From positions 1 to 38,563 of the forward strand of contig CALKXY010000016.1 in assembly GCA_938003545.1 (NCBI GenBank): a stretch of 38,563 nt of DNA, written 5' to 3'. The notes below the pieces were generated by a model, which worked only from the letters and a program-made list of their open reading frames with translations, searched no databases and was not told the DNA's origin. The DNA comes from an uncultured Caulobacterales bacterium. Lineage in GTDB: Bacteria > Pseudomonadota > Alphaproteobacteria > Caulobacterales > Maricaulaceae. This document shows positions 153 through 23,925 of this stretch, piece by piece; the first letter of the stretch is position 1, and every line of letters begins with the position of its first letter. A program made the translations under genes and the position numbers.

Positions 153-3100
153 CTAGAATGAGAAGCGAGCTCCAACACGGAATATACGACCCGTGTTACG
201 TACGAGAGAGAACCGATCTTCAGGCTGGCTTCCAAGCGAGAGAGATTCTTCAGCAATACGAGTTCCATCTTGACCAGGATTCGAAGCATCACGATCAACA
301 ACTTCAAATTGACGACGCTTGGTATCAAGCACATTCACCGCTTGGAAGTTCAAAGAGAAGTTAGGCGTGAAATTATACCCCCCTGAAAAGTCCAGATTTC
401 CAGACGAACCAACGAAAGTACGAAGCCCAGAATTATCAGCCCCTGAATCAAGCAAGTAATCAGACCTCCAGTTATAGGCCGCCCGCAGTGCTAGCTTATC
501 CTTTTCATAAAACACCGTGGTGTTAAACGTGTGGTTGGACGTGTTAGGTAACGGCGCCGCGCGGAACGACTGTTCATTCCCAATCTCATCAACAAATAAC
601 TGCGCCTCAATCTCGGAGTCTGCGTAGGTGTAGTTTGCAACAAAACCAACACCACTCAAAAGACCCGGAAGATATGTAAAGTTATGCTGCAGGGACGTTT
701 CTATACCCCGCACATAGCCATCAGCTGTGTTAATGGGACGACTAAAGTTAAACGCCTCACACCGCCGCTCAATCGTATCTGGCGTAAACTCTGACCCCTC
801 AAGGTTCGTGAAACGCTCCGGCAAGCAAATGTCAGTCGGCTGATTATTTGTCGAAAACGGTAAAATGAAATCATTCAAATTTACCTCAGCCCCAGCAATG
901 GCCGCACCATTTGCATCAAATGTTATTCCGCGCGGATCACGAATAAAAATTGGATTAGCCACAATTCTCTCAGCATCGCTCAAGTCTTTATTAAAAAACG
1001 CAATTGAGAATAAAGAGTTATCATCGAAGTACCACTCTGCAGAGAAATCAAGGTTAGTTGATTTAAAAGGCAGCAACTGTGGATTACCCGCATTCGCATT
1101 ACTTGGGCCAAATACCACCTCGTTAATAGCACCATTTGCTCGATGACTATCTATATTAGGGCGCGCAATCGTTTTAGACGCCGCAAATCTAAGCAGCAAG
1201 TCGTCTTGCGCAAGCCAATTGACATTCAGAGACGGCAACCAATTGCTGTACTTATTCTCACCCGACACAGGAGATCCACCTAATTCAGCAGCCTCCTCAT
1301 TAAATCCTGGCTGACCTTGAGCGATGATATCCGGACCAAACAAATCGATCAAATTCGCCTGAGCCTCTTCAAAAGTAGCCGTATTAGCAGGATCACCCGG
1401 CTCAGGGTCAGGCGTAAAGCCGAAGAAGGGTAAGTTAGTGTTGAAAGCGGTAAAAGGAAGCTCGTTCAACTGGATGTTAGCTCCTCCCGCCACATCTACC
1501 CGAGTTTCCGCGTAACGCAAACCGATGTCACCAAAGACTTTACCTTCTAAGAACTCAAAATTGGATTTTACATATCCACCAAAAATCTCCAGCTCGAGGT
1601 CGCGAGAATTCTGCAAACCTACCCGCTCTGTCCCTGCGTCAGGCACAACCGTTTGAATGAAATCACGCAATACAAAAGGATCATATGTTACAATACCATC
1701 AGTGATATTATCACGCGCGAGACCAATCCTACTGCCGAAATCATCTCTTAGAGCCACACCAGTTTCTTCAAAACCAGTAATAGGGAACTCTAAGAATTCT
1801 TCAAAAAACTGCCCTCTACCCCTAGGCGTTCCTTCTGGATTACGAATAAATCGGCTAAGGCCTGTCGTAACTCCGCCCTGAACGCGGTTACGGTTTTCAT
1901 ACTTGGCACCGAATTCGAAACTCTTGACTGGGCCAAACTCCTGTTCCCAGTCAACATCCAAGAACAATGTGTCAGCCACGTCGTCAATAACAACGTCACG
2001 ACCATTAATTGCCCCAAAAATAAACTCGCCTGGGTCATCAACAATCGCCAAGTCCGGGTTTACAATACCATCAAGCGTTCCACCAGCCGTACGATTTTCA
2101 ACCGTGTCACTTAGGAAAATTTGACAAAGTTCAGATGTACAATCGAACCCTCGCGTGAGACCTGGACGACCGCGAACACCAGGCAAACTCGCAAGGAATG
2201 AAGGGGCCCCAATACCTGCGGGCGCACCACCGTTTAATATTTGAGCATTTGAGTTCGCAAACCTATCAGGCGTAAACTTAGAGTCTGACCGCCCACCCGA
2301 AAGGTTGATATCAAAATCACCGAGCTCCTTCTTAACATTAAATCCGATCGCCAGAGTTTCCTCAGTGTTTTCATCCTCAAGTCGACCAGACCTAACAAAA
2401 CCAATGTTATTTGCGCGCATCGCGCCGCCCGCCGGACGCGGAAAAGTTGTAAGACGATAATTTGTGAGCGTCTGCGTATTAGGATCAAAAACGTTACCAC
2501 CACCATCTTCCGAGATAGCATCAGGACCTGGTGCACCGTTCAAAAGATCAAAACCAGCAAAAGGACGGACACGGAAGTCAAAATTACTTCTATCGCGCTG
2601 CGTCTCAGTATAAGTCGCGTCCACCTGAATATCCCACGTGTCATCAGGCCGCCATTGTATCGTAGAGGTAAGGTTGTTCCGCTTAGTATCAAAGAACCGC
2701 TGACGATACCGCACCTCAAATGGCTGCAAGAACCGAATGCGCTCCTCTGGCGTATCGCCATTGAAAACAACCTCACCCGTTTCGGAGTTGAGAATGCCAC
2801 CCGGCAGAACCCGGCCATTAATATCATTTTGGCCCGGATTAGTTATAGGATTACCAACAAGGTTAAACGCATCATAACGCTCAACACTAACCTCATCAAA
2901 GCGTCCAGAGGTCCTTTCAGATGTCCCAATAAGCGAAAGACCGATCGTATCATTTGCAAATTTCTGAGAAAGCGACAAGTTAATGCGATAATCATCAGTC
3001 AAGTCATCAAAAGACGGAACAGACACATCTTGTGCAAATTCAGAATATCGCGCCTGCAGTGACAAAACACGACGATTCTCTCTAGCATCCAAGGGCTTGA

Positions 3101-3656
3101 AAGTCGTGAGCGTAATAGCCCCGCCAAGACTACCTTCATTTTGATCCGCACTCGCAGTCTTTGCAACCTCAATACGCTGAAGCAAATCAGAAGAAAATGC
3201 TGAAAAGTCAACAGCCTGACCAGCCTGTCCGCCGCCACCGAGAGAGTCCGCGCCCGCCGCATTTGAGAGCGTTACACCATTCAAAGTAACATTATTAAGG
3301 TTCGCATCAATACCGCGCACCGTAACCGTCGACCCTTCACCCTCAGAACGCTCAATAGAGACACCCGTAATACGCGCAAGCGCATCGGCGATATTTGCAT
3401 CTGAAGATTTACCAATATCCTCGGCATTGATACCGTCAACAATCGATTTCGCCGACCGCTTTTCATCAAGCGCATCTTTGATTGATTGACGAATACCAAC
3501 AGCAATAACAGTATCGCCGCCTTCAACCAATTCCGTATCTTGCGCATATGTCGCTGGAGCCGCAGCCATTAAAACGACGACAGACGCCGCACCCATTAGA
3601 GAGGCTGAGAACCACCCTCTTTTTTGATCCCTTAGATCCTTACCCGTAACAGCCAT
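153..3656 (-). CDS. TonB-dependent outer-membrane receptor, Caulobacter/Xanthomonas carbohydrate type
   Basis: This 1167-residue protein has a signal peptide ending near ATYA-QD (about residue 38). A TonB-box-like segment (GDTVIAVGIRQS) and a plug domain (about 60-190) follow, with the hallmark text EDIGKSSDANIADALARITG and VTVRGID. A long beta-barrel ends in aromatic RVGARFSF, the usual barrel-closing C-terminus. This subclass generally imports oligosaccharides too large for porins, using TonB energy. It diverges from the catabolic operon at 4219 and shares the putative GntR operator, so galactan oligosaccharide uptake is the best guess. No SusD-like partner is present. The start is supported by AAGGGAGAG a few bases upstream. 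The family is certain; the substrate is inferred from neighbours. Confidence 0.93.
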   Translation of the reverse strand: MAVTGKDLRDQKRGWFSASLMGAASVVVLMAAAPATYAQDTELVEGGDTVIAVGIRQSIKDALDEKRSAKSIVDGINAEDIGKSSDANIADALARITGVSIERSEGEGSTVTVRGIDANLNNVTLNGVTLSNAAGADSLGGGGQAGQAVDFSAFSSDLLQRIEVAKTASADQNEGSLGGAITLTTFKPLDARENRRVLSLQARYSEFAQDVSVPSFDDLTDDYRINLSLSQKFANDTIGLSLIGTSERTSGRFDEVSVERYDAFNLVGNPITNPGQNDINGRVLPGGILNSETGEVVFNGDTPEERIRFLQPFEVRYRQRFFDTKRNNLTSTIQWRPDDTWDIQVDATYTETQRDRSNFDFRVRPFAGFDLLNGAPGPDAISEDGGGNVFDPNTQTLTNYRLTTFPRPAGGAMRANNIGFVRSGRLEDENTEETLAIGFNVKKELGDFDINLSGGRSDSKFTPDRFANSNAQILNGGAPAGIGAPSFLASLPGVRGRPGLTRGFDCTSELCQIFLSDTVENRTAGGTLDGIVNPDLAIVDDPGEFIFGAINGRDVVIDDVADTLFLDVDWEQEFGPVKSFEFGAKYENRNRVQGGVTTGLSRFIRNPEGTPRGRGQFFEEFLEFPITGFEETGVALRDDFGSRIGLARDNITDGIVTYDPFVLRDFIQTVVPDAGTERVGLQNSRDLELEIFGGYVKSNFEFLEGKVFGDIGLRYAETRVDVAGGANIQLNELPFTAFNTNLPFFGFTPDPEPGDPANTATFEEAQANLIDLFGPDIIAQGQPGFNEEAAELGGSPVSGENKYSNWLPSLNVNWLAQDDLLLRFAASKTIARPNIDSHRANGAINEVVFGPSNANAGNPQLLPFKSTNLDFSAEWYFDDNSLFSIAFFNKDLSDAERIVANPIFIRDPRGITFDANGAAIAGAEVNLNDFILPFSTNNQPTDICLPERFTNLEGSEFTPDTIERRCEAFNFSRPINTADGYVRGIETSLQHNFTYLPGLLSGVGFVANYTYADSEIEAQLFVDEIGNEQSFRAAPLPNTSNHTFNTTVFYEKDKLALRAAYNWRSDYLLDSGADNSGLRTFVGSSGNLDFSGGYNFTPNFSLNFQAVNVLDTKRRQFEVVDRDASNPGQDGTRIAEESLSLGSQPEDRFSLVRNTGRIFRVGARFSF

Positions 3657-3850
3657 GACGCTCTCCCTTTTAACTTCTTTTATTGGTCAGCTTTTTGCGA
3701 CGACCTTAAATGCCTACCTGACGACCCCTTCGAAACACGTGCGATTTACACTGAAGTAAAATGCGGTGTTAACGTTCGATTCCCTCAAGCCCCGTAAGGC
3801 GCACATCAAGCGAAAAACTTTTAGATGATTCACTATCAACACCATCGCTT

Positions 3851-3865
3851 AAACATCATATGTTT
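3851..3865 (-). promoter_or_regulatory. Putative GntR operator, copy 1 (receptor promoter)
   Basis: The sequence AAACATCATATGTTT is a perfect 6-bp inverted repeat with a CAT centre. On the minus strand it lies between a TTGACA box (3875-3870) and a weak -10-like TTTAAG, so a bound protein would block transcription of the receptor gene. The same 15-mer occurs, inverted, at 15030-15044. Confidence 0.65.
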
Positions 3866-4064
3866 ATTCTGTCAACAGAATTGGCCGCCTCAACAATCAA
3901 AACCCTACAGCCGAGACATTTTTGTCACGGTTTTACGTCATAACCCCAGTATATATTGAGAATTAAGCCCGATATTTGACCCAAACATACTCTTTACCCA
4001 CCACGCCAACGGCCAGTAATTTTTCAACTCCGTTAATACAAACAAGATGAAGTCATTAATATTA

Positions 4065-4098
4065 TTGACAGATATGATGTATTGATTAATGCTATTTT
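4065..4098 (+). promoter_or_regulatory. Promoter of the catabolic operon with GntR operator copy 4
   Basis: TTGACA at 4065-4070 is a consensus -35 box, and the region from 4087 (TAATGCTATTTT) supplies a weak -10. The degenerate operator ACAGATATGATGTAT (4068-4082) matches copy 2 at 12 of 15 positions and overlaps the -35 box and spacer, a repressor-like placement. The operon start codon lies about 120 bp downstream. The -10 is not well defined. Confidence 0.5.
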
Positions 4099-4218
4099 AC
4101 GAGCGGAAGAGACTACCAACGCCCATGCGCCTTTGCCTTTCTCAAGTCATTGCGTGTGAGCGTGAACAGCCCGCGAAACCACAGACGCAAGCAAGCCCGC
4201 CGCAAACGGAATGAATAA

Positions 4219-5649
4219 ATGCTACAAAAAAAACTCTATATAAACGGACAATTGCAAAGTACAGGCGAGGCGGTTTCAGTTGTTAACCCTGCCACAGAAG
4301 CCGTTGTAGCGGAAGTTGCAGCGGGTTCAAAAGCTGACGCGCTTGCGGCCCTTGATTCTGCGGCTGCGGCTTTCCCGATGTGGGCGGCGACATCTGTTCA
4401 AGATCGCGCCGAATGGATGCTTAAATTGCGCGACGCTGTTGTTGCAAATGAAGACCATCTACGCGACTGCGTTCATTTGGAAATGGGTAAGCCTTGGGCC
4501 GCGACCGCCGATGATTATCAAATGCTTGTTGATAGTCTCGAGTATTACGCAGGCCTGATTACTGAAATTTCGCCTGAAGCCCTTAAAGACAATGAAGGCA
4601 CGCACGCCCATACGCTTTACAGAGAACCCCTTGGGGTTGTCGGGGCGTTTTTGGCTTGGAATTTTCCTCTGTTAAACCTCGCGTATAAAATTGGTCCCGC
4701 AATGGCGGCGGGTTGCCCCATAATTATTAAGCCGTCATCTTTAACCCCCCTCTCCGCCTATGCCGTTGGTGAGCTTTGTGAAGGCATTGGACTCCCCGCT
4801 GGCGTCGTGAGTATTCTTGCTGGTGACAATAAAGAGGTCGGCGATACGATTAGCGCCTCAACCATTCCATCCATGTTGACACTCATCGGGTCAACGCCTG
4901 TCGGCCTTCATGTCATGCGCACAGGCGCGACATCCATTAAGCGTTACTCGATGGAACTTGGCGGCAATGCTCCAGCCATCATATTCCCCGACGCTGACCT
5001 CGATGTTGCCGCTGACACAATTTGCGGGCTTAAATATGCAAACAGCGGTCAAATTTGCGTAACGCCAAATCGTGTAATCATGCATGAGGACATTGCAGAG
5101 GCCTTGACCCAAAAAATCGTGGAGCGCGCAAACGCTGTTAAAGTCGGCTTCGACAAATCCAGCGATATCGACATGGGTCCGGTTATGGACAAGCGGTCTT
5201 GGGTGCGAATTCACGGATTAGTTCAGGACGCCATTGAAAACGGCGCACAGCTTCTTGCGGGCGGTAATCGACCCGATGCCTTTACGACTGGGCATTACTA
5301 CGCTCCGACGGTCTTAGACAAAGTCACACCGGACATGCGCGTGAGCCAAGAAGAAATTTTTGGCCCCGTTATTGGTCTGCAGACATTTTCAGACAATGCC
5401 GAGGTCCTTGAGAGAGCCAATGATACGGATGCCGGACTAACGGCTTATGTTTTCACCCAAGACACCTATCTCGCGGAAGACTTCGCTCAAAAGCTACGGT
5501 TTGGTGAAATTCAAATTAACGGCGTCAAATATGCGATCCACCTTCCCCATTGCGGCATAAAGCAATCTGGAGTTGGCGCAGATTGTTCTCCGATCGCATT
5601 AGAAGAATATCTTGCTCCGAAACGCGTTTCGCGCGCGATTGGAGCTTAG
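4219..5649 (+). CDS. NAD(P)-dependent aldehyde dehydrogenase, candidate 3,6-anhydrogalactose dehydrogenase
   Basis: This 476-residue protein belongs to the aldehyde dehydrogenase superfamily. Visible are the oxyanion Asn in AWNFP (about N148), the general-base Glu in MELGGNAP (E246), the catalytic Cys in NSGQICVTP (C280) and the EEIFGPV motif. Members of this branch oxidise semialdehydes, lactaldehyde or sugar aldehydes. It heads an operon and lies 9 bp before a cycloisomerase. This is the order expected for oxidation of 3,6-anhydrogalactose to anhydrogalactonate followed by ring opening, as known in marine agar and carrageenan degraders. That assignment is by context; a lactaldehyde or succinate-semialdehyde dehydrogenase role cannot be excluded. 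Confidence 0.85.
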   Translation: MLQKKLYINGQLQSTGEAVSVVNPATEAVVAEVAAGSKADALAALDSAAAAFPMWAATSVQDRAEWMLKLRDAVVANEDHLRDCVHLEMGKPWAATADDYQMLVDSLEYYAGLITEISPEALKDNEGTHAHTLYREPLGVVGAFLAWNFPLLNLAYKIGPAMAAGCPIIIKPSSLTPLSAYAVGELCEGIGLPAGVVSILAGDNKEVGDTISASTIPSMLTLIGSTPVGLHVMRTGATSIKRYSMELGGNAPAIIFPDADLDVAADTICGLKYANSGQICVTPNRVIMHEDIAEALTQKIVERANAVKVGFDKSSDIDMGPVMDKRSWVRIHGLVQDAIENGAQLLAGGNRPDAFTTGHYYAPTVLDKVTPDMRVSQEEIFGPVIGLQTFSDNAEVLERANDTDAGLTAYVFTQDTYLAEDFAQKLRFGEIQINGVKYAIHLPHCGIKQSGVGADCSPIALEEYLAPKRVSRAIGA

Positions 5650-5658: not shown

Positions 5659-6825
5659 ATGAAAATCACAAAAATCATCAGTCATGTTTTACAATATGAC
5701 TTAGAATCCGAGCTTGGTTACTCCCAGCAATATTACAAGCAACGTACCGCCCACATCGTCGAAGTTCAAACGGATGAAGGCATAACGGGCTGGGGCGAAT
5801 GTTTTGGTGGCGGCGCAATCGCGCTTGCCAATAAAACCATCGTGGAAAAAGTTATTCAGCCCATGATTTTAGGGATGGATCCACTCGACCGTGAGGTCAT
5901 ATGGCACAAAGCCTATAATCTCATGCGTGATCACGGCCAAAAAGGTATGCCGATACAATCACTTTCTGGCATTGATATTGCGCTCTGGGATATTGCTGGC
6001 AAATATTTCAACGTACCTGTCTATAAATTGCTAGGCGGCGCATTCCGCGAACGCATTCCTGTCTATGGTTATGGGATGATGCTGCAGCGTAAGCCGAATT
6101 TAGTCGAGAGCTTTGCCCAAGAAAGTGCAGAGATCGTTTCTAAAGGCTTCAAAGCCACAAAAATGAAAATCGGGCTTGGTCCAAAGAAAGACCTGGAGCT
6201 TATCTCTGCTGTACGAAAATCTATCGGCGATGATATTGAACTGATGGTTGATGCAAATCATGCTTACACAACGCGTGAAGCCATCCCTATGGGGCGTGAG
6301 ATGGAAAAACTTGGGGTTGCGTGGTTTGAAGAACCCGTCGCACCAGAAGATCGCCAAGGCTATAAAGCCCTATGCGATGCACTTGACCTAAATATTGCTG
6401 GCGGAGAAGCCGAATTTACGGCTTGGGGCTTCCGTGACCTTATCGTAGATCGATGTGTTGACATTTTGCAGCCCGAAGTCTGCGCAATGGGCGGTATCAG
6501 CGAGTATAGAAAAGTACTTGCGATGGCGCGAGCGCACTTCATCCCAATAGTAAATCACGTCTGGGGTTCAGCCGTCGCAGTTGGAACAAATCTTCACCTC
6601 ATTGCAGCCTTGCCTGACCTCCCCGGCGCGGCGCACCCTATTCAGCCTATGTTGGAATATGACACGACGCCAAACCGTTTTCGCGAAGACATTCTAAAAG
6701 AACCTTTGCAAATAAATGAGCAAGTTGCGTCTTCAAACGATGGCACGGTTGCCATTCCAACTAAACCGGGTCTCGGTGTCGATCCTGATCCAGATTTCTT
6801 AAAACATTTCGCTATCGATGCTTAA
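5659..6825 (+). CDS. Enolase-superfamily sugar-acid cycloisomerase or dehydratase, candidate anhydrogalactonate cycloisomerase
   Basis: This 388-residue mandelate-racemase-type enzyme has a capping domain (1-125) and a barrel with the base motif TKMKIG (K168, K170). Putative metal ligands are D198 (VDANH), E224 (FEEPV) and E250 (GGEAEF), and a catalytic His sits at H300 (NHVWGS). From memory it resembles galactarolactone cycloisomerase of Agrobacterium over most of its length (GWGEC, LSGIDIALWDI, HVWG). The anhydrogalactonate cycloisomerases of agar and carrageenan catabolism belong to this superfamily. The expected role is conversion of 3,6-anhydrogalactonate to 2-keto-3-deoxygalactonate. 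The start has AGGGGAAAG upstream. The gene overlaps the next by 8 bp, so the two are probably co-translated. Galactarate- or galactonate-type activity is the main alternative. Confidence 0.82.
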   Translation: MKITKIISHVLQYDLESELGYSQQYYKQRTAHIVEVQTDEGITGWGECFGGGAIALANKTIVEKVIQPMILGMDPLDREVIWHKAYNLMRDHGQKGMPIQSLSGIDIALWDIAGKYFNVPVYKLLGGAFRERIPVYGYGMMLQRKPNLVESFAQESAEIVSKGFKATKMKIGLGPKKDLELISAVRKSIGDDIELMVDANHAYTTREAIPMGREMEKLGVAWFEEPVAPEDRQGYKALCDALDLNIAGGEAEFTAWGFRDLIVDRCVDILQPEVCAMGGISEYRKVLAMARAHFIPIVNHVWGSAVAVGTNLHLIAALPDLPGAAHPIQPMLEYDTTPNRFREDILKEPLQINEQVASSNDGTVAIPTKPGLGVDPDPDFLKHFAIDA

Positions 6826-7744
6826 AACAGCAGGGATATCATCAATTGGCGCTTCAAGCGCCAAATGTGAAATTTATGACGAGGCCATATGCGCCTGTGG
6901 TGAAGCCCCGCTTTGGCACCCGATTAGAGAACAACTCTACTGGGTAGACATAACCCACCATAAAATTTTGACCCGATTGAACGGCGAAACCAGTACAATA
7001 CAGTTTAATGAATTTGTAACGGCTTTGGCGTGGGTGGATAAAGACCATTTATTGGCCGCTACCGAAACATCTCTAACCGTTTTAAATGTGATAACTCAGG
7101 AAAAAAGAGTCTTATGCGCCTTAGAATCTGACAGCCATGAAACGCGCAGCAATGATGGCCGCGCCGATCCATGGGGTGGGTTTTGGATCAGCACCATGGG
7201 GAAAGAGGCGCAAAAAGGATTGGGTAAAATTTATCGCTTTTACGAAGATCAGCTACACGTCGTTGTGCCTTCAATTTCAATACCAAATGCAATCTGTTTT
7301 GATCCTGTCCGTGCGCGCGCATATTTCGCTGATACAATGACCAAGAAGGTCTATGTGATGGAGTTGGACAGCCAAACAGGACAGCCAATTTCTGCCCCCA
7401 CAATCTTCAAAGATTTTTCAAATCTAAACCAAGCCATTGATGGCGGGGTCGTAGATAAAAACGGCGATTTGTGGCTTGGTGTTTGGGATGGAAAACATAT
7501 TTTAAAGGTTAACCCTGAAGGCGAAATCATTGAACGATTCCTAACAGGTGCCGACAGACCAACTTGCCCAGCGTTTGGCGGCCCCTCTCATGCTGATCTA
7601 TTTGTTACAACGGCAGCAATTGGCTTAGAAGACAGTCTCTCCACCACACCAGAGCAAGGTAAAACTCTCATTTTTAGAGATGTTGCTAAAGGCGAACCCG
7701 CCCCCTGCTTCAGTCTCCCCGCGAGCTTTCAGTCTGAGTGTTAG
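6818..7744 (+). CDS. SMP-30/gluconolactonase-family sugar lactonase
   Basis: This 308-residue six-bladed propeller lactonase carries the family metal-site texts: GEAPLWHP (E29), RSNDGRADPWGGFW with the conserved Asn, PNAICFD, and IDGGVVDKNGDLW with the conserved Asp. It has no signal peptide, so it should act in the cytoplasm, opening an aldonolactone such as galactono-1,4-lactone. It overlaps the cycloisomerase gene by 8 bp (ATGCTTAA) and precedes the regulator by 18 bp. Galactonolactone is a good guess because dgoA and dgoK are in the same locus, though SMP-30 enzymes can have broad specificity. Confidence 0.85.
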   Translation: MLKTAGISSIGASSAKCEIYDEAICACGEAPLWHPIREQLYWVDITHHKILTRLNGETSTIQFNEFVTALAWVDKDHLLAATETSLTVLNVITQEKRVLCALESDSHETRSNDGRADPWGGFWISTMGKEAQKGLGKIYRFYEDQLHVVVPSISIPNAICFDPVRARAYFADTMTKKVYVMELDSQTGQPISAPTIFKDFSNLNQAIDGGVVDKNGDLWLGVWDGKHILKVNPEGEIIERFLTGADRPTCPAFGGPSHADLFVTTAAIGLEDSLSTTPEQGKTLIFRDVAKGEPAPCFSLPASFQSEC

Positions 7745-7762: not shown

Positions 7763-8500
7763 ATGAGTGAACTCGTATATTATGACCTGAAACAAACGGC
7801 GAATATCACGCCTAGCATGCCACAGCAGCTTGCGCGAGAGTTGGGCCGTCGAATAATCGCAGGGTCAATCGAAACGGGAACACTTCTCGACGATGAAAAT
7901 GCACTCGCTGAAAGATATGAAGTGAGTCGCGTTGTCGTTCGCGATGCCGTCAAAATACTCGTTGGAAAAGGCTTACTGGATGTACGCCGAGGTATAGGAA
8001 CACGTGTTCGACCAAGAGACAGGTGGGTTCTACTTGATGATGACGTCTTAGCTTGGCACCTTTCAGCCCCGCCTAGCGCCTCTTTTTTAGCGCAACTCAT
8101 GGAGATTAGGCTCGCCATCGAACCCAAGGCATCACGCTGGGCTGCAGAACGTGCCACAAGTGAAGACATTGAAGCTATTGCTAAAGCCCTCAAGGGCATG
8201 GAAGATGCAACGGGCACAAGTGAGAGCTTTATTATAGCAGATGCTTTGTTCCACAAAGCTATCCTAAAAGCGGCTAGAAACGAGTTTTTATCCGGCCTTG
8301 AAGGCGTGATTTATTCCGCACTCCTCGTCAGTGTCAGAATTACAAACAAAGATCCGCGCGATAATGGAGCTTCAATTCCTTTCCATCGGGACGTTTATAA
8401 TGCGATTGCAAACCACAATGGTGACCTTGCAGAAGCGTTGACACAAAAACTTCTAAGTGATGCAAGCCAGAGGCTTAAATCAAAATTCAACCGGGATTAA
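7763..8500 (+). CDS. FadR-subfamily GntR transcriptional regulator, probable regulator of the galactan locus
   Basis: This 245-residue protein has an N-terminal winged helix-turn-helix (about 18-85; LAERYEVSRVVVRDAVKILVGKGLLDVRRG). A C-terminal FCD ligand domain (about 100-230) has probable metal and ligand His residues in ADALFHKAIL and FHRDVYNAIANH. Regulators of this type, such as DgoR, usually repress sugar-acid operons and release DNA on binding a sugar acid. It lies inside the operon it probably controls, and its likely operator (AAACAT-CAT-ATGTTT) overlaps promoter elements of the locus. AGGAAAC is the ribosome-binding site. The effector is unknown; 2-keto-3-deoxygalactonate or galactonate are candidates. 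Confidence 0.88.
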   Translation: MSELVYYDLKQTANITPSMPQQLARELGRRIIAGSIETGTLLDDENALAERYEVSRVVVRDAVKILVGKGLLDVRRGIGTRVRPRDRWVLLDDDVLAWHLSAPPSASFLAQLMEIRLAIEPKASRWAAERATSEDIEAIAKALKGMEDATGTSESFIIADALFHKAILKAARNEFLSGLEGVIYSALLVSVRITNKDPRDNGASIPFHRDVYNAIANHNGDLAEALTQKLLSDASQRLKSKFNRD

Positions 8501-10549: not shown

Positions 10550-10553
10550 TCGC

Positions 10554-12749: not shown

Positions 12750-12775
12750 TCAGGCATCAAGCCAAAACGTAAATC

Positions 12776-14973: not shown

Positions 14974-15029
14974 GGATTCTCCAATCGAGATTGAGGTAAA
15001 CACACACCTCGCACTTACTTATGCTTTGC

Positions 15030-15044
15030 AAACATATGATGTTT
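15030..15044 (+). promoter_or_regulatory. Putative GntR operator, copy 2 (dehydratase/transporter divergent promoter)
   Basis: AAACATATGATGTTT is the exact reverse complement of copy 1. It lies between the divergent dehydratase (start 14973) and transporter genes. It overlaps a candidate plus-strand promoter, TTGCAA at 15026-15031 with TATAAA at 15047-15052, whose 15-bp spacer is short. One bound dimer could control both directions. Confidence 0.65.
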
Positions 15045-15106
15045 AGTATAAAACTACGTATAACAAAGCAAGAATTACAAATGAGGCACGGCCTCTGGGG
15101 ATGATG

Positions 15107-16693: not shown

Positions 16694-17473
16694 ATGAGTT
16701 CACGTCTTAAAGATGAAATTGCAATTGTTACTGGCGGAGCAGATGGTATCGGCCGTGCAATTGTAGAGATGTTCTGCGCCCAAGGCGCGAAAGTCTGCAT
16801 CGCAGACATCAATGAAGACTTAGGACAAGAACTAGCACGTGACCTGACGGCGAAAGGCTTCGATACTTTTTTTTCAAATGTCGACGTCGGGAATATCAGC
16901 CAAGTCAACGCAATGGTTGAAGCGACAAACACCCGATTTGGCGCACCGTCAATCCTTATCAATAATGCGGGATGGATACCGATGACCGCAGAGCCTTTGG
17001 ATGCGGAAGATGACATGTGGCAGCGTTTATTTAGATGTAATCTTGATGGCATGTGGAATTGCGCTCGTGCAGTCATACCACAAATGAAAGTCGCGAATAA
17101 GGGCAGCATTGTAAATTTAGGTTCTGTCCATTCACATCAAATTGTTAAAGGGCATTTCCCTTATGCTGTTACAAAACATGCGGTCGTAGGGCTTACGCGC
17201 AGTCTTGCAGTTGAATATGCGAAAAACAAAATTCGCGTAAATACGCTCTGCCCCGGCATGGTTGAAACGCCGACGGCCCTGAAAGGCTGGAGTGAAACTG
17301 AGGATCCAGAGGGGCTTCGTCAGGCTGTCGCTAACCTACATCCGCTACAAATGAACGCCGTTCCAAAAGACATGGCCTATGCTGCCGTCTTCCTTGCGAG
17401 CCAAGAGGCACGATTTATGACAGGTCAGAGCCTGATCATTGATGGTGGCCGTTCCATTCTTTACCACGATTAA
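16694..17473 (+). CDS. SDR-family oxidoreductase, candidate galactose dehydrogenase
   Basis: This 259-residue classical short-chain dehydrogenase has the cofactor motif TGGADGIG, the structural NNAG, the catalytic Tyr-Lys pair in YAVTK, and a Ser in NLGSVHS. The C-terminal text FMTGQSLIIDGG is typical. Asp in CIADIN after the second strand favours NAD. Placed 30 bp after the sugar transporter and 13 bp before dgoA, it is a good candidate for galactose 1-dehydrogenase, giving galactonolactone for the lactonase. Alternatives are 2-keto-3-deoxy-L-galactonate 5-dehydrogenase of the L-anhydrogalactose route or another polyol dehydrogenase. SDR substrates cannot be assigned from motifs. Confidence 0.85.
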   Translation: MSSRLKDEIAIVTGGADGIGRAIVEMFCAQGAKVCIADINEDLGQELARDLTAKGFDTFFSNVDVGNISQVNAMVEATNTRFGAPSILINNAGWIPMTAEPLDAEDDMWQRLFRCNLDGMWNCARAVIPQMKVANKGSIVNLGSVHSHQIVKGHFPYAVTKHAVVGLTRSLAVEYAKNKIRVNTLCPGMVETPTALKGWSETEDPEGLRQAVANLHPLQMNAVPKDMAYAAVFLASQEARFMTGQSLIIDGGRSILYHD

Positions 17474-17486
17474 TTTAAGGCACATT

Positions 17487-18134
17487 ATGTCACTGACCGA
17501 AAAATTCCATGCCAGTATGGAAGCCTTCCCCTGCGTGGCAATTCTGCGCGGCTTAGAACCGTCTGATGCCTTAGAGATAGGGCAAGCCTTATTTGATAAT
17601 GGCTTCCGCATGATCGAAGTGCCTTTAAATTCACCCGATCCTTACAAAAGCATCGAAATTCTGGCCAAAGCCTTTGGCGATGAAGCCATCATCGGGGCTG
17701 GCACTGTCCTTACGGAGCAAGCAGTTACCGAAGTTCAAAACGCAGGTGGGGAAATCATTGTCTCGCCCAATATGAATGAAGCGGTCATCAAAGCAACCAA
17801 GGCAAAAGGTATGTTATCTGCGCCAGGCGTACAGACACCATCTGAGGCTTTCGGCGCGATTCAAGCCGGCGCAGATGCCATTAAATTTTTTCCCGGTGAA
17901 GCGATTACGCCTGCGATTTTCAAGGCTATGAAAGCCGTTCTTCCATCAGAATTTCCGACATTGATTGTTGGCGGCATCCGTCCTGAACTGATGGAGAACT
18001 ACCTAAAATCTGGCGCCTCAGGGTTCGGAATTGGGTCTGGCGTTTTTAAAGCTGGTGACAGCGTCAAAACCGTTCAAGAAAAATCAGTTGGCTTCAAATT
18101 AGAACTCATAAAACAAAAGATTATTTCAGCATAA
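17487..18134 (+). CDS. dgoA: 2-dehydro-3-deoxy-6-phosphogalactonate (KDPGal) aldolase
   Basis: This 215-residue class I aldolase is near the E. coli DgoA length of 205. It aligns in text: AILRGLEPSDAL, IEVPLNSP, IIGAGTVLT, IVSPNMNEAVIKA and the Schiff-base lysine in AGADAIKFFPG (K133). It would cleave KDPGal to pyruvate and glyceraldehyde-3-phosphate. An upstream in-frame ATG at 17439 lies inside the SDR gene. The ATG at 17487 is chosen because it gives the family N-terminus and does not overlap. The stop overlaps the dgoK start by one base (TAATG). KDPG aldolase (Eda) is a close relative, but EVPLNSP and the dgoK neighbour favour KDPGal. Confidence 0.92.
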   Translation: MSLTEKFHASMEAFPCVAILRGLEPSDALEIGQALFDNGFRMIEVPLNSPDPYKSIEILAKAFGDEAIIGAGTVLTEQAVTEVQNAGGEIIVSPNMNEAVIKATKAKGMLSAPGVQTPSEAFGAIQAGADAIKFFPGEAITPAIFKAMKAVLPSEFPTLIVGGIRPELMENYLKSGASGFGIGSGVFKAGDSVKTVQEKSVGFKLELIKQKIISA

Positions 18135-19033
18135 TGACCGAAATTACATCTCATCCCATCATTCTTGGTGATTGGGGAACTTCATCTTGCCGCCTTTATC
18201 TGTGTGAAGGGGAGACCATTTTAGACAGTGCCACAGCGCCTGGTATAAAATTCGTTGAAGATCCAGAGGCTACATTTTGCGAAACAATCGAGCCATGGGT
18301 GACGAAATACGGTAAACTGGACGCTGTGCTATGCGGCATGGTGGGCTCTAATATTGGCTGGAAGGATGCAGGCTATATGGACTGCCCTGTGGGCCTGCAG
18401 GACTTTGGCGGCAACCTCATCAATCTCGCAACAGAAACATGTAACGTAAAAATCGTACCCGGCGTTAAAACGCTTTCGGGACTAGCGAAAACACCTGACG
18501 TCATGCGCGGAGAAGAGACACAAATTCTAGGATGGGCTTCATCTCGAAAATCTGATGGTTTGCTTTGCCTGCCAGGAACCCACACAAAATGGGCCCAAAT
18601 TGAAAACGGCAAAATCCAAAATTTCATGACAAGTGTGAATGGTGAACTTTTTGACGTGATTCTTAATCACAGCGTCCTTGTTGGCGGCAGCAACCTACCG
18701 CCAGCCTGTATCGGAGACGAATACCGAAGTGGGATAGAAACCGCCGCAACAGGCATACCCTTGACACAACAACTTATGTCGGTGCGCTCTCATCAGATCA
18801 TGGGAAATTACGATGTCATTCAAGCCAAAAGCTATTTGCTTGGGCTTTTGATTGGGACCGATGTAGCCGGAAGCCTCGAATACGCAAATGGTGCATCTAT
18901 CTCTGTGATTGGAGGCAGTGCTCCTGCTAGCTTTTATGCGGAAGCCATTCGCACCTTAGGCGGTAAAGCGAACATATATGGCGGCCAAGAAGCCTCATTA
19001 ACAGGTTTGCATCATATCATCGAACAAGGCTAA
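18134..19033 (+). CDS. dgoK: 2-dehydro-3-deoxygalactonate (KDGal) kinase
   Basis: This 299-residue protein matches the DgoK family (E. coli about 292). Visible are the ATP-site text LGDWGTSSCRLYL, CGMVGSNIGWK, VMRGEETQILG, PGTHTKWAQ and LLIGTDVAGS. It phosphorylates KDGal at O6 to feed the aldolase. Translation is coupled to dgoA by a TAATG overlap. The pair is the shared lower part of D-galactonate and D-anhydrogalactonate breakdown. Confidence 0.94.
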   Translation: MTEITSHPIILGDWGTSSCRLYLCEGETILDSATAPGIKFVEDPEATFCETIEPWVTKYGKLDAVLCGMVGSNIGWKDAGYMDCPVGLQDFGGNLINLATETCNVKIVPGVKTLSGLAKTPDVMRGEETQILGWASSRKSDGLLCLPGTHTKWAQIENGKIQNFMTSVNGELFDVILNHSVLVGGSNLPPACIGDEYRSGIETAATGIPLTQQLMSVRSHQIMGNYDVIQAKSYLLGLLIGTDVAGSLEYANGASISVIGGSAPASFYAEAIRTLGGKANIYGGQEASLTGLHHIIEQG

Positions 19034-19041: not shown

Positions 19042-19947
19042 ATGTCACTAGCCCGTGCACTCAGCGCATCCTTTGTTCTCATCAGCGTCTCCGCCTGTGG
19101 GAATAAATCTACTGTTGCACCTTCGACAGAGAAAGTCGTGGCATGTCTAACCACTATTCCACCCTCTGTTACCGTAAAAAGTGGAACTGCGAGTATCGGA
19201 AATGATCATGCATATCGCGAAGAAGGTCCAAAACGCAGCATAAACATATCTGCATTCGACATAGACGCGACGGAGGTTACGAATGGTGCCTTTCGAGAAT
19301 TTGTTACGGCAACCGGCTATGTAACAGATGCTGAAAAGAAACAGGCTGGCTTCAATGTCCCAGGCGGGGCTGTCTTTAGAACTCCTGACGCCGAGAACAC
19401 GAGCTGGTGGCAGTTCGTAGAAGGCGCAAGTTGGAAACACCCTGAGGGCCCGGAAAGCTCTATAATAGGTCGTGATTACGACCCTGTCGTACAAATCAGC
19501 TTGAAAGATGCAAAGGCCTATGCCGCTTGGTCTGGACGACGCTTGCCTACACAGGATGAATGGGAATACGCAGCCAATGCTGGAAGTGACGACACATACG
19601 TTTGGGGCAGTGAAAGAGCGCCAAATGGCGAAGAACAGGCAAATACATGGCAAGGGGCTTTTCCATTAGAAAATCTTGCCGATGACGGGTATCTTCGTCG
19701 CGCACCTGTCGGCTGCTATACGCCAAATGCTTTCGAACTTTACGACATGATCGGCAATGTTTGGGAATGGACGGATACCCCCTTCTCTCGGCAATCTGGA
19801 ACCATTCAATACGTTATTAAGGGTGGTTCCTTTTTATGCGCACCAAATTATTGTCGAAGATACCGTGCATCGGCCCTACAGCCGCAAGACGCTGATTTCA
19901 CAACGAACCACATAGGCTTTCGAACGGTTGGTGATTTGTCCAACTAA
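19042..19947 (+). CDS. Formylglycine-generating enzyme (SUMF1 family), predicted lipoprotein
   Basis: This 301-residue protein has a signal with lipobox SVSAC (C19). A sulfatase-modifying-factor domain (about 40-297) follows, with DATEVTNGAFREFV, RLPTQDEWEYAA, YDMIGNVWEWTD and GGSFLCAPNYCRRYR. The last segment carries both cysteines of the copper site (C266, C271) in the spacing of true FGEs, and many SUMF1-like proteins lack them. It would oxidise the CxPSR cysteine of sulfatases to formylglycine. The predicted envelope location fits maturation of exported sulfatases after translocation, unlike the cytosolic FGEs of actinobacteria. It is last in the transporter-dgoK operon, 8 bp after dgoK and 8 bp from the convergent GH16 gene. 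Confidence 0.9.
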   Translation: MSLARALSASFVLISVSACGNKSTVAPSTEKVVACLTTIPPSVTVKSGTASIGNDHAYREEGPKRSINISAFDIDATEVTNGAFREFVTATGYVTDAEKKQAGFNVPGGAVFRTPDAENTSWWQFVEGASWKHPEGPESSIIGRDYDPVVQISLKDAKAYAAWSGRRLPTQDEWEYAANAGSDDTYVWGSERAPNGEEQANTWQGAFPLENLADDGYLRRAPVGCYTPNAFELYDMIGNVWEWTDTPFSRQSGTIQYVIKGGSFLCAPNYCRRYRASALQPQDADFTTNHIGFRTVGDLSN

Positions 19948-19955
19948 TCGTGCTG

Positions 19956-21326
19956 TTATGGTGTTACGTGCAACTCGGTTAGCACAAAGTTATCCAAACG
20001 CATGCGGCCACCTTGCGGTGAATTGGTAAAATACACCGTTACTGCGTTCGTATTGGAATTTGTTTTAAATTGAAGGCTCTTTTCTTTCCAAGTCGGAAAA
20101 AAGAAACGGACATCATTTTTTTTAACACCATTTTCGACGACACCCATATAGGCGTTCATCCATTTATCTTTCATATTGGTATCATCCGAAGACACTGCAG
20201 CAGACAAAAGGTAAAGCGTATTCGGTTTCACTTTGATTGTGCGATTGATACGAGCTTCCCCTTCAAAACGCAGCGCATTCTCGCCTTGAAAACTCTCCGT
20301 TGTCAACACACCCTGGTCTTCCCATCCCTTTACCCCACTTTCGAAGTCCCCATTAGGAATGAGGTTTTCTCGCGCTTCGCAGCCCGGGCCGAAACGATCT
20401 CCCTCACGTTTAAAAACGCGTGCATAGTCAACAATGAAGTCAACGCCTTCATCTCCGAAATCCGCTTTGGAAAGTTCATTGGGTGCAACTTCCCAATCAA
20501 AAATTTCAGAATCTATCCAGATTTTATGTTGCGACGTCGCGACCCAACGATCACCTAAATCTTCACGACTCATACATTTTACCAAGCCACCATTTATATA
20601 GATAGACAAGTAGTTCGGGTCCCACTCAAAACCGTAAATATTAAAATCATCGGCCACACGAAAATCTAAAATATGGCTGATGTCCCATATTCTCTTTCCA
20701 TATGTTTCTGACCCCTTGCGCCAATCATGTAGGGATGTGTGGAGCCGTCGCTCTGACCATCTGTTCTTGGGGTTTTTCCCAAAAGATTCAAAGGCATCGG
20801 TTTCTCCGCCCGGCCCTGTGGTCCAAAAGGAACTGGAGATAGGTGCATCTGCCTTTTTAGCGCGCATCTCCATATATCCGAACTTATATGTATTTTTTCC
20901 AAGCAACGCGGCTGTTGTAACAGGGGCAATATCACCATACCCGATATCGCTCGTCGCATTTCCACGTGGACCATCTTCAGCAAAGTCATAGTCTGGCTCC
21001 CAACGGGATGTGAGATAAAGATAGCCATTTTCGACCCGAATATTAGCAGGATTATATTGCGATGGAGCCCGGCCTTTCCACTGGCCTTTAAAGTCGCCGC
21101 CCTCCCCCATATTGTGCCAGACATTACGGTTGAAATCGGTCTCGTTAAATTCATCGCTTAACGCATTTTGATAAACCCATTTCCCAATGTTCTCTGGATC
21201 GGAAACTGGTGATAAATTAACAGGTACTTCGGTATGAACAAAATTTGTATTGGCTGAATTTGCTTTGCTACAAGACGGCATAACAAAAATAGTAGAAAGA
21301 CATAGTAAGACTGATAAAATCTTCAT
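19956..21326 (-). CDS. GH16 endo-galactanase-like lipoprotein with C-terminal carbohydrate-binding-like domain
   Basis: 456 residues. A lipoprotein signal (MPSC, C19) precedes a GH16 domain (about 35-310) with WKGRAPSQY and the catalytic E-x-D-x-x-E (E175, D177, E180 in GGETDAFESFG), nucleophile and acid/base. The C-terminal part from ENLIPNGDFESGVKGWEDQG to the end looks like a CBM4/9-type jelly roll. The family cleaves beta-linked glucans or galactans. The surrounding sulfatase, FGE and dgo genes suggest agarase, porphyranase or carrageenase-type action. As a lipoprotein it may sit on the cell surface. It is last of three GH16 genes, 34 bp after the second, and no strong ribosome-binding site is visible. 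The exact subfamily needs a profile comparison. Confidence 0.9.
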   Translation of the reverse strand: MKILSVLLCLSTIFVMPSCSKANSANTNFVHTEVPVNLSPVSDPENIGKWVYQNALSDEFNETDFNRNVWHNMGEGGDFKGQWKGRAPSQYNPANIRVENGYLYLTSRWEPDYDFAEDGPRGNATSDIGYGDIAPVTTAALLGKNTYKFGYMEMRAKKADAPISSSFWTTGPGGETDAFESFGKNPKNRWSERRLHTSLHDWRKGSETYGKRIWDISHILDFRVADDFNIYGFEWDPNYLSIYINGGLVKCMSREDLGDRWVATSQHKIWIDSEIFDWEVAPNELSKADFGDEGVDFIVDYARVFKREGDRFGPGCEARENLIPNGDFESGVKGWEDQGVLTTESFQGENALRFEGEARINRTIKVKPNTLYLLSAAVSSDDTNMKDKWMNAYMGVVENGVKKNDVRFFFPTWKEKSLQFKTNSNTNAVTVYFTNSPQGGRMRLDNFVLTELHVTP

Positions 21327-21360: not shown

Positions 21361-22347
21361 TTAGTTTTTTTGCCAAACTCGAACATAGTCGATTTCAAAA
21401 TCAACAACTCCATCGTCTTTCTTATGGTCAGGACTGTTCAACTCTAAATCTTCTTTGCTGTCGGGCACTCCGTGCCAAGGAAACGTCTCCTGATCCAACC
21501 AAATATAAATTGGTTTTGTGATGACGTAACCTTCGCCATATCCTTTTGCGCTCGCATAAGCATTTATTTGTTCTCTGCTAGCTTCAGTGAAAAGTTTCCC
21601 ATCAACATAATACTTCACACCTGTCTCATCCCACTCAATTCCATAAGTGTGGAAATCATCAGCCACACGAAACCCCAAGTCATGATGTTCTGTATATACA
21701 CTTGGTCCCTTTGGGCGTTGCGTCCAATCATGGATAGACCACCAAAGTTCACGATCTTTGTCTAGTTTTTGAGGTTGTCGATGGTCTCCAAATTGTTCGA
21801 ACATATCAAATTCGGTGCCATTCCCAATTGACCAAAATGAACTTGTAATTTCAGCATCTGCCGCTTTGCTTCGTATTTCCATATATCCGTATTTGAACGC
21901 TTTCCGACCGAGAATACTTGCCGTTGTAATGTTTTCAAATTTACTGCGTGTCTTGTCGTCACCCCATGGTTTATCGAGCTCGTCCGTAAATGGAAAATCA
22001 GGCTCCCACCGAGTTTCCAACTTTAACATACCATCTTCTAATCGGTAATTGCGTCCAGAAAATTGTGAAGGCGCTCGCCCCTTCCATACCTTTTTGTCAG
22101 GGTTATCTGGATGCTTATATACGGGAACACCATCTTCAAACTTACCCGCTACATACCAACGGTTTTCATCAAGGTCTTCATCGTTAAACTCATCACTAAC
22201 CTCAACATTTAGAGACCAACCACTTGTATTATTCGGATCAGATAGAGGGAATATGGTTTCAGTCGAGAGGTCTTCAACCGCGTGAGAACAAGCAACCAAA
22301 AGCCCCAGTGTTAAAAACGAAAAGTATTTATACGCGTTCATCATCAC
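21361..22347 (-). CDS. GH16 endo-galactanase-like lipoprotein, single domain
   Basis: 328 residues. A lipobox LVAC (C20) is followed by one GH16 domain ending in FEIDYVRVWQKN, without the binding domain of its neighbours. The catalytic motif is E179, D181 and E184 in GTEFDMFEQFG. The substrate-cleft texts WKGRAPSQF, RWEPDFPF and IHDW are shared with the flanking GH16 proteins, so the three are paralogues. Three ATG codons are in tandem at the start, with GGAG about 6 bases before the first. A terminator-like hairpin lies directly before this ribosome-binding site, so expression probably depends on read-through from the upstream GH16 gene. Confidence 0.9.
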   Translation of the reverse strand: MMMNAYKYFSFLTLGLLVACSHAVEDLSTETIFPLSDPNNTSGWSLNVEVSDEFNDEDLDENRWYVAGKFEDGVPVYKHPDNPDKKVWKGRAPSQFSGRNYRLEDGMLKLETRWEPDFPFTDELDKPWGDDKTRSKFENITTASILGRKAFKYGYMEIRSKAADAEITSSFWSIGNGTEFDMFEQFGDHRQPQKLDKDRELWWSIHDWTQRPKGPSVYTEHHDLGFRVADDFHTYGIEWDETGVKYYVDGKLFTEASREQINAYASAKGYGEGYVITKPIYIWLDQETFPWHGVPDSKEDLELNSPDHKKDDGVVDFEIDYVRVWQKN

Positions 22348-22358
22348 AGTCTAACTCC

Positions 22359-22392: not shown

Positions 22393-22425
22393 CTATAGTC
22401 GAGGGGAAATTCAATTTACTAAACT

Positions 22426-23925
22426 TTATCGTACAGCTTTGATTTCAATATCATCCAAGTAGAAATCACGTGCGCCTTTTGGAATATCTTTGCCCAATAT
22501 TGAGATAATCATGTGATCATCCACGTTAGACGCTTCGGATTTCGAAAAACGTTTTTTCACTGTCACCCATTTTTCTCGCTCAACCTTGGTTAAATCAAAA
22601 GGTAAATCGACGTGTGGAGATTGCAGATCCAACGACATTTCATTGGGTTGCAATCCGTGATTTAGAAATATCTTAAATGAAATTTCGTATTCGCCAGCTT
22701 CTAGCTTCATAGACCCTTTTGGCGACACAGCGGCCACATCAATCGGGTCACCTTGCGTAACATATTTCAAGCTATTGACACCTGTGTACCAACGGTTCTC
22801 TACAATCTTAAACGCCTTAGAACTTGCTTCACTAATACCCCAGAATTGTTGATAATCATTATTATCATTGTCCTCTGGTAAGAGATCAAAAGGTCGTTGT
22901 GCTGTCTGGAAAAGATACGGACCTTCAAACCCATAAAACTGTCGATCTTGATCAAGAATATTCTCTGATGGCTTCTGCCATACCCGAACATAATCAATTT
23001 CGTAATCTACGGGCAGTTCCGCCTCGTGTGGAATACCCAGCCATTTGAATATTTCGGAATCCAACCAAATTTCCATTGGGTTGTTCAGAACAAAGTCTGT
23101 ACCAATATTTTTTTGCTCAACGTGATGAACTTCCTTACCATCGATAAATATCTTCAAGTAATCTTGGCCCCATTCAGCACCAAAAACACCATATTCATCA
23201 GAAACATTGTAAGGTAATTCTTGAGAATAACCGAAAACGCGAGTCGGGCGAATGGATGGCGGACTCCAATCATGCACAGTCATCTTAAATTTATTTCCGC
23301 TGAGCCCCCCTTTAATAGTAGGGTTCCCCATCTGCTCATAAACATCTAACTCTTGCTGGTATCCAATCGCCCAAAACGCAGCCGTCATGGCGGCATATCC
23401 AGCTTTTGAGCGTACTTCCATGTAGCCATTTAGAAAACGTTGTTTACTCACAACAGCAGCTGTTGTGACAGGCAAAGGCGCCCCTTCAAAAACACCATAT
23501 GTGTCGTTGTTTTGTCCATCTGCATAGGCTTCTTGAGCAAAAGGAAAATCTGGTTCCCATTGCGTTCTAATTTTCAGAAACCCATCCTCAACGATGACAT
23601 TATGCGGTGCAAATTGCGAAGGTGCACGACCTTTCCAAATATAGTAATTCCCCTCATGACCCTGCACGAGCCATTTAGAGTGGTCGATTTCGCCGCCATT
23701 AAATTCATCACTGATATTTGTATTCAAGCGCCAACCCCCAGTATTTAAGGGATCAGAAGCAGGCGTAAGATCAGAACTCACGAGGTGATCTGGAAGGTGC
23801 ATCGCAAATGGCGAATTTGTATCGACAACATTTAACCCAGCATCATGATCTGGCAAATCGGCGTTTGAACATGCTGCGAATACGCCTGCCGCCACCAAAA
23901 AACCAGCTTGTTTCAGAGCTTTCAT
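22426..23925 (-). CDS. GH16 endo-galactanase-like lipoprotein with C-terminal jelly-roll-like domain
   Basis: 499 residues. Lipobox FAAC (C19). The GH16 domain (about 65-320) has WKGRAPSQF, RTQWEPDFPF and the catalytic E192, D194, E197 in QQELDVYEQMG. The C-terminal 170 residues, ending in FYLDDIEIKAVR, look like a beta-sandwich carbohydrate-binding domain. An ATG at 23940 is in frame, but GGAGGG lies between it and the ATG at 23925, making the latter the real start and giving a proper signal peptide. It is the first gene of the GH16 operon and lies about 75 bp downstream of GntR operator copy 3. Confidence 0.91.
   Translation of the reverse strand: MKALKQAGFLVAAGVFAACSNADLPDHDAGLNVVDTNSPFAMHLPDHLVSSDLTPASDPLNTGGWRLNTNISDEFNGGEIDHSKWLVQGHEGNYYIWKGRAPSQFAPHNVIVEDGFLKIRTQWEPDFPFAQEAYADGQNNDTYGVFEGAPLPVTTAAVVSKQRFLNGYMEVRSKAGYAAMTAAFWAIGYQQELDVYEQMGNPTIKGGLSGNKFKMTVHDWSPPSIRPTRVFGYSQELPYNVSDEYGVFGAEWGQDYLKIFIDGKEVHHVEQKNIGTDFVLNNPMEIWLDSEIFKWLGIPHEAELPVDYEIDYVRVWQKPSENILDQDRQFYGFEGPYLFQTAQRPFDLLPEDNDNNDYQQFWGISEASSKAFKIVENRWYTGVNSLKYVTQGDPIDVAAVSPKGSMKLEAGEYEISFKIFLNHGLQPNEMSLDLQSPHVDLPFDLTKVEREKWVTVKKRFSKSEASNVDDHMIISILGKDIPKGARDFYLDDIEIKAVR

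Follow-up and report, generated by a model that had tools for sequence, protein, structure and literature searches.

A window of 38,563 nucleotides, which is an entire contig (C16; CALKXY010000016.1) of a metagenome-assembled genome (MAG) from an uncultured Caulobacterales bacterium, carries at positions 153-23940 a set of 18 genes that, on our comparisons, is very probably a Pseudoalteromonas-type carrageenan utilisation locus (CarPUL) in a marine alphaproteobacterium. Fourteen of the 18 genes have counterparts among the CarPUL proteins of P. carrageenovora. As in the Pseudoalteromonas-type system, dauA, dauB, dgoK and dgoA are linked, and homologues of a carrageenan S1_19 sulfatase and a GH16 carrageenase lie with them; genes for an SDR, a lactonase and a galactonate dehydratase (GalD), by homology those of the De Ley-Doudoroff route, are in the same locus. 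An initial annotation of this DNA had named an aldehyde dehydrogenase, a cycloisomerase, an SDR, a lactonase, a dehydratase, a dgoK-dgoA pair, three GH16 enzymes, a sulfatase and a formylglycine-generating enzyme (FGE), all of which are present as intact open reading frames of the expected families (ORF calling and family profiles); it did not mention the TonB receptor, GntR regulator, molybdenum (Mo)-hydroxylase pair, lipoprotein lactonase or sugar porter. The MAG is 2.3 Mb in 52 contigs and 75.9% complete, and absences from it, like those from the plasmid-only P. carrageenovora record, carry little weight. No 16S rRNA gene was found in the MAG; for an SdhA-like protein on contig C4, all 12 plasmid matches listed (the best 12 of 503 records) came from alphaproteobacterial organisms. 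The predicted features of the locus are given below, with percentages referring to protein identity.

153-3656, minus strand: TonB-dependent receptor (TIGR01782, 539 bits; 45-51% to the receptors of three alphaproteobacterial CarPULs), likely for carrageenan oligosaccharide uptake
3851-3865, minus strand: candidate operator AAACATATGATGTTT; the receptor start is about 202 bp away and dauA about 361 bp
4219-5649, plus strand: dauA-like 3,6-anhydro-D-galactose dehydrogenase (Aldedh; 64% to the P. carrageenovora counterpart)
5659-6825, plus strand: dauB-like 3,6-anhydro-D-galactonate cycloisomerase (MR_MLE; 5olc, 314 bits; 77% to P. carrageenovora)
6818-7744, plus strand: SMP-30 sugar lactonase, candidate galactonolactonase (SGL, 210 bits; 43% to the CarPUL lactonase)
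7763-8500, plus strand: GntR/FCD regulator (PF00392 and PF07729; 69% to a P. carrageenovora CarPUL GntR)
8566-10050, plus strand: S1_19 sulfatase, exo-4S-kappa-carrageenan type (6prm, 639 bits; 61% to P. carrageenovora; CGPSR motif; lipobox by eye)
10091-10549, plus strand: Mo-hydroxylase 2Fe-2S subunit (Fer2/Fer2_2; 60% to a Microbulbifer CarPUL subunit)
10476-12749, plus strand: Mo-cofactor subunit (residues 31-749 match 8gy3_C, an aldehyde dehydrogenase large subunit, 235 bits; SRR leader, Tat-like by eye; true start probably near 10554)
12776-13825, minus strand: 7-bladed lactonase-type protein (PF10282, 120.6 bits; lipobox by eye, leader LIGC), its gene overlapping the dehydratase gene by 7 bp
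13819-15003, minus strand: D-galactonate dehydratase GalD of the De Ley-Doudoroff arm (MR_MLE; PRK14017, 287.5 bits; 77% to Hirschia, 55% to P. carrageenovora)
15030-15044, plus strand: candidate operator AAACATATGATGTTT, between dehydratase and sugar porter
15101-16663, plus strand: sugar porter of the MFS (TIGR00879, 271 bits, above cut-off; 61% to the CarPUL MFS protein)
16694-17473, plus strand: SDR, candidate galactose dehydrogenase (NF005559, 223 bits, cut-off 215; 54% to the CarPUL SDR)
17439-18134, plus strand: dgoA/dauD KDPGal aldolase (NF006600, 259.5 bits, cut-off 207; 48% to P. carrageenovora)
18134-19033, plus strand: dgoK/dauC KDGal kinase (PF05035, 242 bits; 32% to P. carrageenovora)
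19042-19947, plus strand: FGE (PF03781, 222 bits; LC-x4-C pair)
19956-21326, minus strand: GH16, GH16_13-like, with CBM_4_9 (motif ETDAFE; 9ijc, E 8e-42)
21361-22347, minus strand: GH16, GH16_13 (motif EFDMFE; 9ijc, E 2e-49)
22426-23940, minus strand: GH16, GH16_13-like (motif ELDVYE; 9ijc, E 6e-49)
23999-24013, minus strand: candidate operator AAACATATGATGTAT with one mismatch, about 66 bp upstream of the GH16 unit

A promoter scan of 3600-4300 found nothing. A second sulfatase gene in the window (30174-31904), related to the arylsulfatase 1hdh and with an atypical CSVTR motif, is not part of the operator-marked set; genes for IclR, an aminotransferase and an aldehyde dehydrogenase are close to it.

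The initial annotation described a sulfated-galactan system lacking SusD; homology supports this, and the Pfam scan, which covered 27 window proteins, found no SusD family member among them. The relatives of the sulfatase, the GH16 enzymes, the DauA-like dehydrogenase and the cycloisomerase best support a D-series carrageenan reading, so that the general galactan assignment stands and can be refined: from sequence comparison, the substrate is most likely carrageenan, with its D-anhydrogalactose, and not agar, porphyran or laminarin. Residues 47-493 of the sulfatase align with 6prm, an exo-4S-kappa-carrageenan sulfatase, at twice the score of the next enzyme (639 against 321 bits). The best solved relative of all three GH16 proteins is 9ijc/9int, a single sequence that is the Wenyingzhuangia GH16_13 beta/kappa-carrageenase (PMC13168452), and all three keep the ExDxxE motif. 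Their closest relative is thus a characterised GH16_13 enzyme rather than GH16_17 or a laminarinase; kappa-carrageenase entries score far lower (best E 4e-5 to 8e-5 for two, 1.6e-4 for the third), and 8ep4/8ew1, named only GH16, rank second for two of the three. The GH16 at 21361-22347 is 63-65% identical to the P. carrageenovora GH16 adjoining CRTAC1-B; judged by the order of locus tags, that P. carrageenovora enzyme is the equivalent of GH16B in strain PS47. The subfamily of the other two is less sure because they reach only 35-37%. An alignment made to compare the -1 subsite residue Gly258 of CgkA with GH16_13 was uninformative and was not used.

Given this evidence, a locus for agar or porphyran, acting on L-anhydrogalactose or 6-sulfated L-galactose, is quite improbable. 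Porphyranases do appear among the weaker GH16 matches (best E 3.5e-17 for 22426, 2.4e-12 for 21361 and 1.8e-13 for 19956), but the GH16_13 match beats the best of them by 28 to 37 orders of magnitude and the nearest relative of the sulfatase is a carrageenan 4S enzyme. No orthologue of the L-anhydrogalactose cycloisomerase was found: that enzyme (5xd7) scores 127 bits against the window's cycloisomerase, whereas Zobellia DauB (5olc, the D-type) ranks first at 314. Moreover, L-KDGal is not an expected substrate of dgoK/dgoA. Hardly credible at all is a GH16 laminarinase cluster that merely adjoins an unrelated galactonate operon. GH16 is a broad family and beta-glucanase/laminarinase entries are among the matches (best E 1.7e-6 for 19956, 1.6e-9 for 21361, 2.9e-6 for 22426), yet 9ijc surpasses these by 35 to 43 orders of magnitude in E-value, one operator word heads the GH16 unit and the sugar-acid units alike, and clusters of the homologous genes occur in both proteobacterial classes. 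The case in which all three enzymes would prove to be laminarinases did not arise, and both of these readings were rejected on the GH16, sulfatase and cycloisomerase matches.

A third possibility, to which we give appreciably more room while still considering it unlikely, is that the locus serves a scavenger that uses oligosaccharides freed by other bacteria and does not degrade the polymer itself. The GH16 enzymes are nearest GH16_13, one characterised member of which, GH16B, is reported to be active on carrageenan only after desulfation by S1_19A (PMC6923384), and the whole MAG yields only these three GH16 proteins, all in the window, and no GH167. Set against this are the incompleteness of the MAG and an S1_19 sulfatase on its contig C29, 43% identical to the second P. 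carrageenovora S1_19 (by position S1_19A), which would open the polymer to the GH16_13 enzymes.

Under the CarPUL reading, oligosaccharides would enter through the TonB receptor, and periplasmic S1_19 sulfatases and GH16_13 enzymes would desulfate and cut kappa/beta-type carrageenan. D-anhydrogalactose would then be converted by DauA and DauB, and D-galactose by the SDR, the lactonase and galactonate dehydratase, to 2-keto-3-deoxy-D-galactonate, from which DgoK and DgoA would yield pyruvate and glyceraldehyde 3-phosphate; the GntR/FCD regulator would govern the gene set through the near-palindrome AAACATNNNATGTTT. What the sequences show is homology, gene order and the recurring operator word; the enzymatic steps, the cell compartments and the pairing of GntR with the operator we infer. 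Nothing in the window is recognisable as the gene for cleaving the alpha-1,3 bond. In each of the four alphaproteobacterial loci examined, an FGE gene accompanies the CarPUL; judged by eye, the four aligned proteins carry export or lipoprotein-like leaders, a hint that sulfatases are matured outside the cytoplasm.

The sugar pathway as such has been described in other marine bacteria. The initial annotation's central idea, that two branches meet at 2-keto-3-deoxygalactonate, finds support in homology, and it was already known, because the convergence is printed for gammaproteobacterial CarPULs: Hettle 2019 (PMC6923384), citing Gobet 2018 (PMC6262041), states that both arms are encoded in the Pseudoalteromonas CarPUL and likely converge at this compound, and the CarPUL figure legend of PMC6262041 names Gdh, lac, DH, dauA-D and GntR, with mention of the De Ley-Doudoroff route. 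Nor is a locus outside the Bacteroidota new as such: Ficko-Blean 2017 (PMC5698469) reports carrageenan loci in Bacteroidetes, Proteobacteria, Planctomycetes and Firmicutes, with SusCD lost outside Bacteroidetes, and its Fig. 9 legend gives Gammaproteobacteria as the only proteobacterial class. The available text of PMC10233909 describes carrageenan polysaccharide utilisation loci (PULs) found through SusC/D only. What we did not find in the literature searched is the alphaproteobacterial set and the shared operator: judged by titles and the starts of abstracts, no description of an alphaproteobacterial CarPUL was met, and nothing relevant on a carrageenan GntR operator or its sequence.

The near-palindrome AAACATATGATGTTT emerged from a plain comparison of words shared among 19 intergenic regions, in which the textbook FadR/GntR words (TNGTNNNACNA and TGGT-ACCA) had no match. 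The window holds two exact copies and one with a single mismatch, each ahead of a unit start and together covering all three transcription units; that all three (3851, 15030 and 23999) head units inside 153-23940 agrees with the locus borders. For the 13-base core, three window sites with up to one mismatch were observed against a mean of 0.05 expected, and five with up to two against 1.3 (20 Markov simulations). At up to one mismatch the whole MAG has seven sites, five of them exact, and the ten same-genus genomes searched, out of 17, have 0-2 sites each (11 in total, one exact); a reversed-pattern control gave at most one site per genome or record in a set of 29. The word precedes CarPUL genes in both alpha- and gammaproteobacteria: 37 chosen loci and the window together contain 77 distinct sites, and 71 of these lie within 450 bp of the start of a CarPUL-class gene, meaning one that resembles a window or P. 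carrageenovora CarPUL protein, and two of the remaining six precede genes that the script had missed (in Paraglaciecola 20A4 a GH127 match, in Sphingopyxis a CRTAC1 match).

We also inspected nine of the sites outside the main clusters; further outlying ones lie in G063, G067, G070, G071, G075 and same-genus genomes. Six of the nine precede carrageenan-class genes: in the MAG, a TonB receptor on contig C7 and a CRTAC1 gene on C8; in Paraglaciecola 20A4, two GH16_13 genes and one TonB receptor; and in Hirschia, a GH16_13 gene. The other three are on MAG contig C4 and Hirschia contig C3 (one mismatch each) and contig C3 of genome G015 (exact). In four CarPUL loci, as in the D-anhydrogalactose loci of Labrenzia, Sulfitobacter and Vibrio penaeicida, a site stands 19 bp before gntR, and it is from this position that we infer the pairing; the linked GntR regulator probably has AAACATATGATGTTT as its operator. 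The word may serve to find carrageenan genes, including lone ones, in proteobacterial genomes.

Hirschia maritima, Sphingopyxis jiangsuensis and an Altererythrobacter MAG likewise carry near-complete CarPULs. An impression that DauA was missing from the Sphingopyxis and Altererythrobacter loci was wrong, as the gene lay outside the 10 kb flank. In trees, the window's GalD groups with those of Hirschia, Sphingopyxis and Altererythrobacter (100/100), apart from the gammaproteobacterial enzymes; its MFS porter groups with Sphingopyxis/Altererythrobacter (96/93) and its S1_19 weakly with all three (83/94). Since the best-scoring sulfatase match in 17 same-genus genomes has only 37% identity, the locus would have been either gained here or lost by its kin.

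Several observations weigh against our preferred interpretation. DauB has no well-supported grouping with the other alphaproteobacterial loci, and homology to it is not diagnostic by itself, a homologue of about 60% being present in 42 of 42 SAR11 loci; these 42 gave no matches to DauA, DgoK, DgoA, S1_19 or the one GH16 tried, and there the homologue probably serves another sugar acid. GalD scores 287.5 bits with PRK14017, below the NCBIfam cut-off of 311. The 37 loci were chosen for their CarPULs, D-anhydrogalactose operons or sites, and several are near-identical strains. The exact site in the same-genus genome G015 (C3:200611), which is not among the 77, has no carrageenan-class gene nearby and reflects either chance or another regulon. 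Finally, no GH167, GH127 or GH129 was found in the 76%-complete MAG, so that depolymerisation to monosaccharides is incomplete on paper. In one SAR11 locus (L070), genes labelled by eye as TRAP-transporter-like, SDR and FAH-like lie beside the DauB homologue.

The missing step, that of an alpha-1,3-(3,6-anhydro)-D-galactosidase, has a published counterpart: Pseudoalteromonas CarPULs are described as being without GH127/GH129, and three propeller proteins (EU509_08830, 08835 and 08875) are put forward as candidates (PMC6923384). From locus-tag order beside S1_19A and GH16B, we take these to be CRTAC1-A, the SMP-30 lipoprotein and CRTAC1-B of P. carrageenovora. Among 16 CarPUL genomes or records (this MAG, G060-G073 and the P. 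carrageenovora plasmid), CRTAC1 homologues (E <1e-100) occur in 15, GH127 in four, GH129 in one and GH167 in 12 (12 of 19 in all searched). The prevalence of CRTAC1 over GH127 narrows the published candidates; the SMP-30 lipoprotein, present in only four of the 16 (E <1e-50), was set aside as the general missing enzyme. In five of the 12 GH167 genomes (Microbulbifer mangrovi, Microbulbifer elongatus, Sphingopyxis, Altererythrobacter and Hirschia) a CRTAC1 match lies no more than 400 bp from the GH167 match. The CRTAC1 gene on contig C8 stands alone there, with an exact operator about 82 bp upstream.

We offer, as a tentative proposal that we regard as possible but not probable, that AAACATNNNATGTTT may be the operator of a single GntR/FCD regulator common to alpha- and gammaproteobacterial carrageenan regulons, and that the regulon so marked may include the galactosidase in the form of the CRTAC1-type FG-GAP propeller lipoprotein, in which case the latter would found a new glycoside hydrolase family. 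Counting against the CRTAC1 idea are that (i) Microbulbifer thermotolerans, although it carries a CarPUL, gives no match to CRTAC1, GH127, GH129 or GH167; (ii) all four GH127 genomes also have CRTAC1, the two being neighbours in Paraglaciecola, so that one does not simply replace the other; and (iii) the family is broad, with human CRTAC1 as a solved relative (E 5e-11), and we know of no enzyme activity in it. We draw no catalytic claim from the list of invariant residues, because overlapping copies and Ca-binding motifs are among its 46 rows. Which enzyme frees D-anhydrogalactose where GH127 and GH129 are absent is a published gap that is now testable.

The Mo-hydroxylase pair and lipoprotein lactonase form an extra module (10091-13825) with no match in any of the 41 loci compared, MAG contig C36 included. 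A Mo-hydroxylase operon with XdhC and MobA genes is present in Microbulbifer CarPULs outside the compared flanks: in M. elongatus and M. sp. HZ11, where an operator precedes it, and, by coordinates only, in M. mangrovi. The large subunit is a common protein in general, with homologues in 35 of the 48 genomes searched (this MAG among them). The Fig. 9 legend of PMC5698469 names OXR, a Mo-type oxidoreductase subunit. As a guess, the Mo-hydroxylase may carry out periplasmic oxidation of D-anhydrogalactose or of oligosaccharide ends.

Outside the window, the MAG has two CRTAC1 genes as well as a counterpart of S1_NC and a further S1_19. Contig C29 (L025) holds a TonB receptor end, the S1_19 discussed above (its P. 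carrageenovora counterpart adjoins CRTAC1-A), S1_NC (58%), a CRTAC1 propeller and an SDR, and is probably another part of the carrageenan system. The 5.9-kb contig C36 (L024) carries a second, diverged dauA-dauB-SGL-gntR-S1_19-GalD set (68-92% protein and 72-76% DNA identity) without the Mo-hydroxylase and lactonase; it is either a true second locus or a bin contaminant.

Among related systems, operons of an ABC type in Sulfitobacter SK012 and Labrenzia THAF82 share DauA, DauB and a related GntR preceded by AAACATCTGATGTTT, and that of SK012 also has dgoK and dgoA. Unlike the window, the loci compared have no GH16 or S1_19 matches and carry an ABC transporter and a GMC oxidoreductase instead; they are likely scavengers of free D-anhydrogalactose. 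The Sulfitobacter operon is on a plasmid typed as conjugative. The Zobellia galactanivorans carrageenan regulon, as presented in PMC5698469, shares the dauA-D pathway and a Mo-type OXR subunit, whereas the window differs in its sulfatases, lacks SusCD (27 proteins) and GH127/GH129 (whole MAG), which sets it apart from Bacteroidota carrageenan PULs generally, and has the De Ley-Doudoroff galactose genes inside the locus. Closest is the CarPUL of P. carrageenovora and P. fuliginea PS47, which shares dauA, dauB, dgoK, dgoA, GalD, the SMP-30 lactonase, SDR, MFS porter, GntR, S1_19B, GH16_13 and TonB receptor and, in P. carrageenovora, the operator word. By comparison with it, the window is without GH167, S1_NC, S1_19A, CRTAC1 and GH16_17, although other contigs of the MAG carry S1_NC, an S1_19 and CRTAC1, and against the P. 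carrageenovora CarPUL proteins compared, only the window has the Mo-hydroxylase pair, the lipoprotein lactonase and the FGE. The carrageenan loci of proteobacteria would thereby extend to an alphaproteobacterial set.

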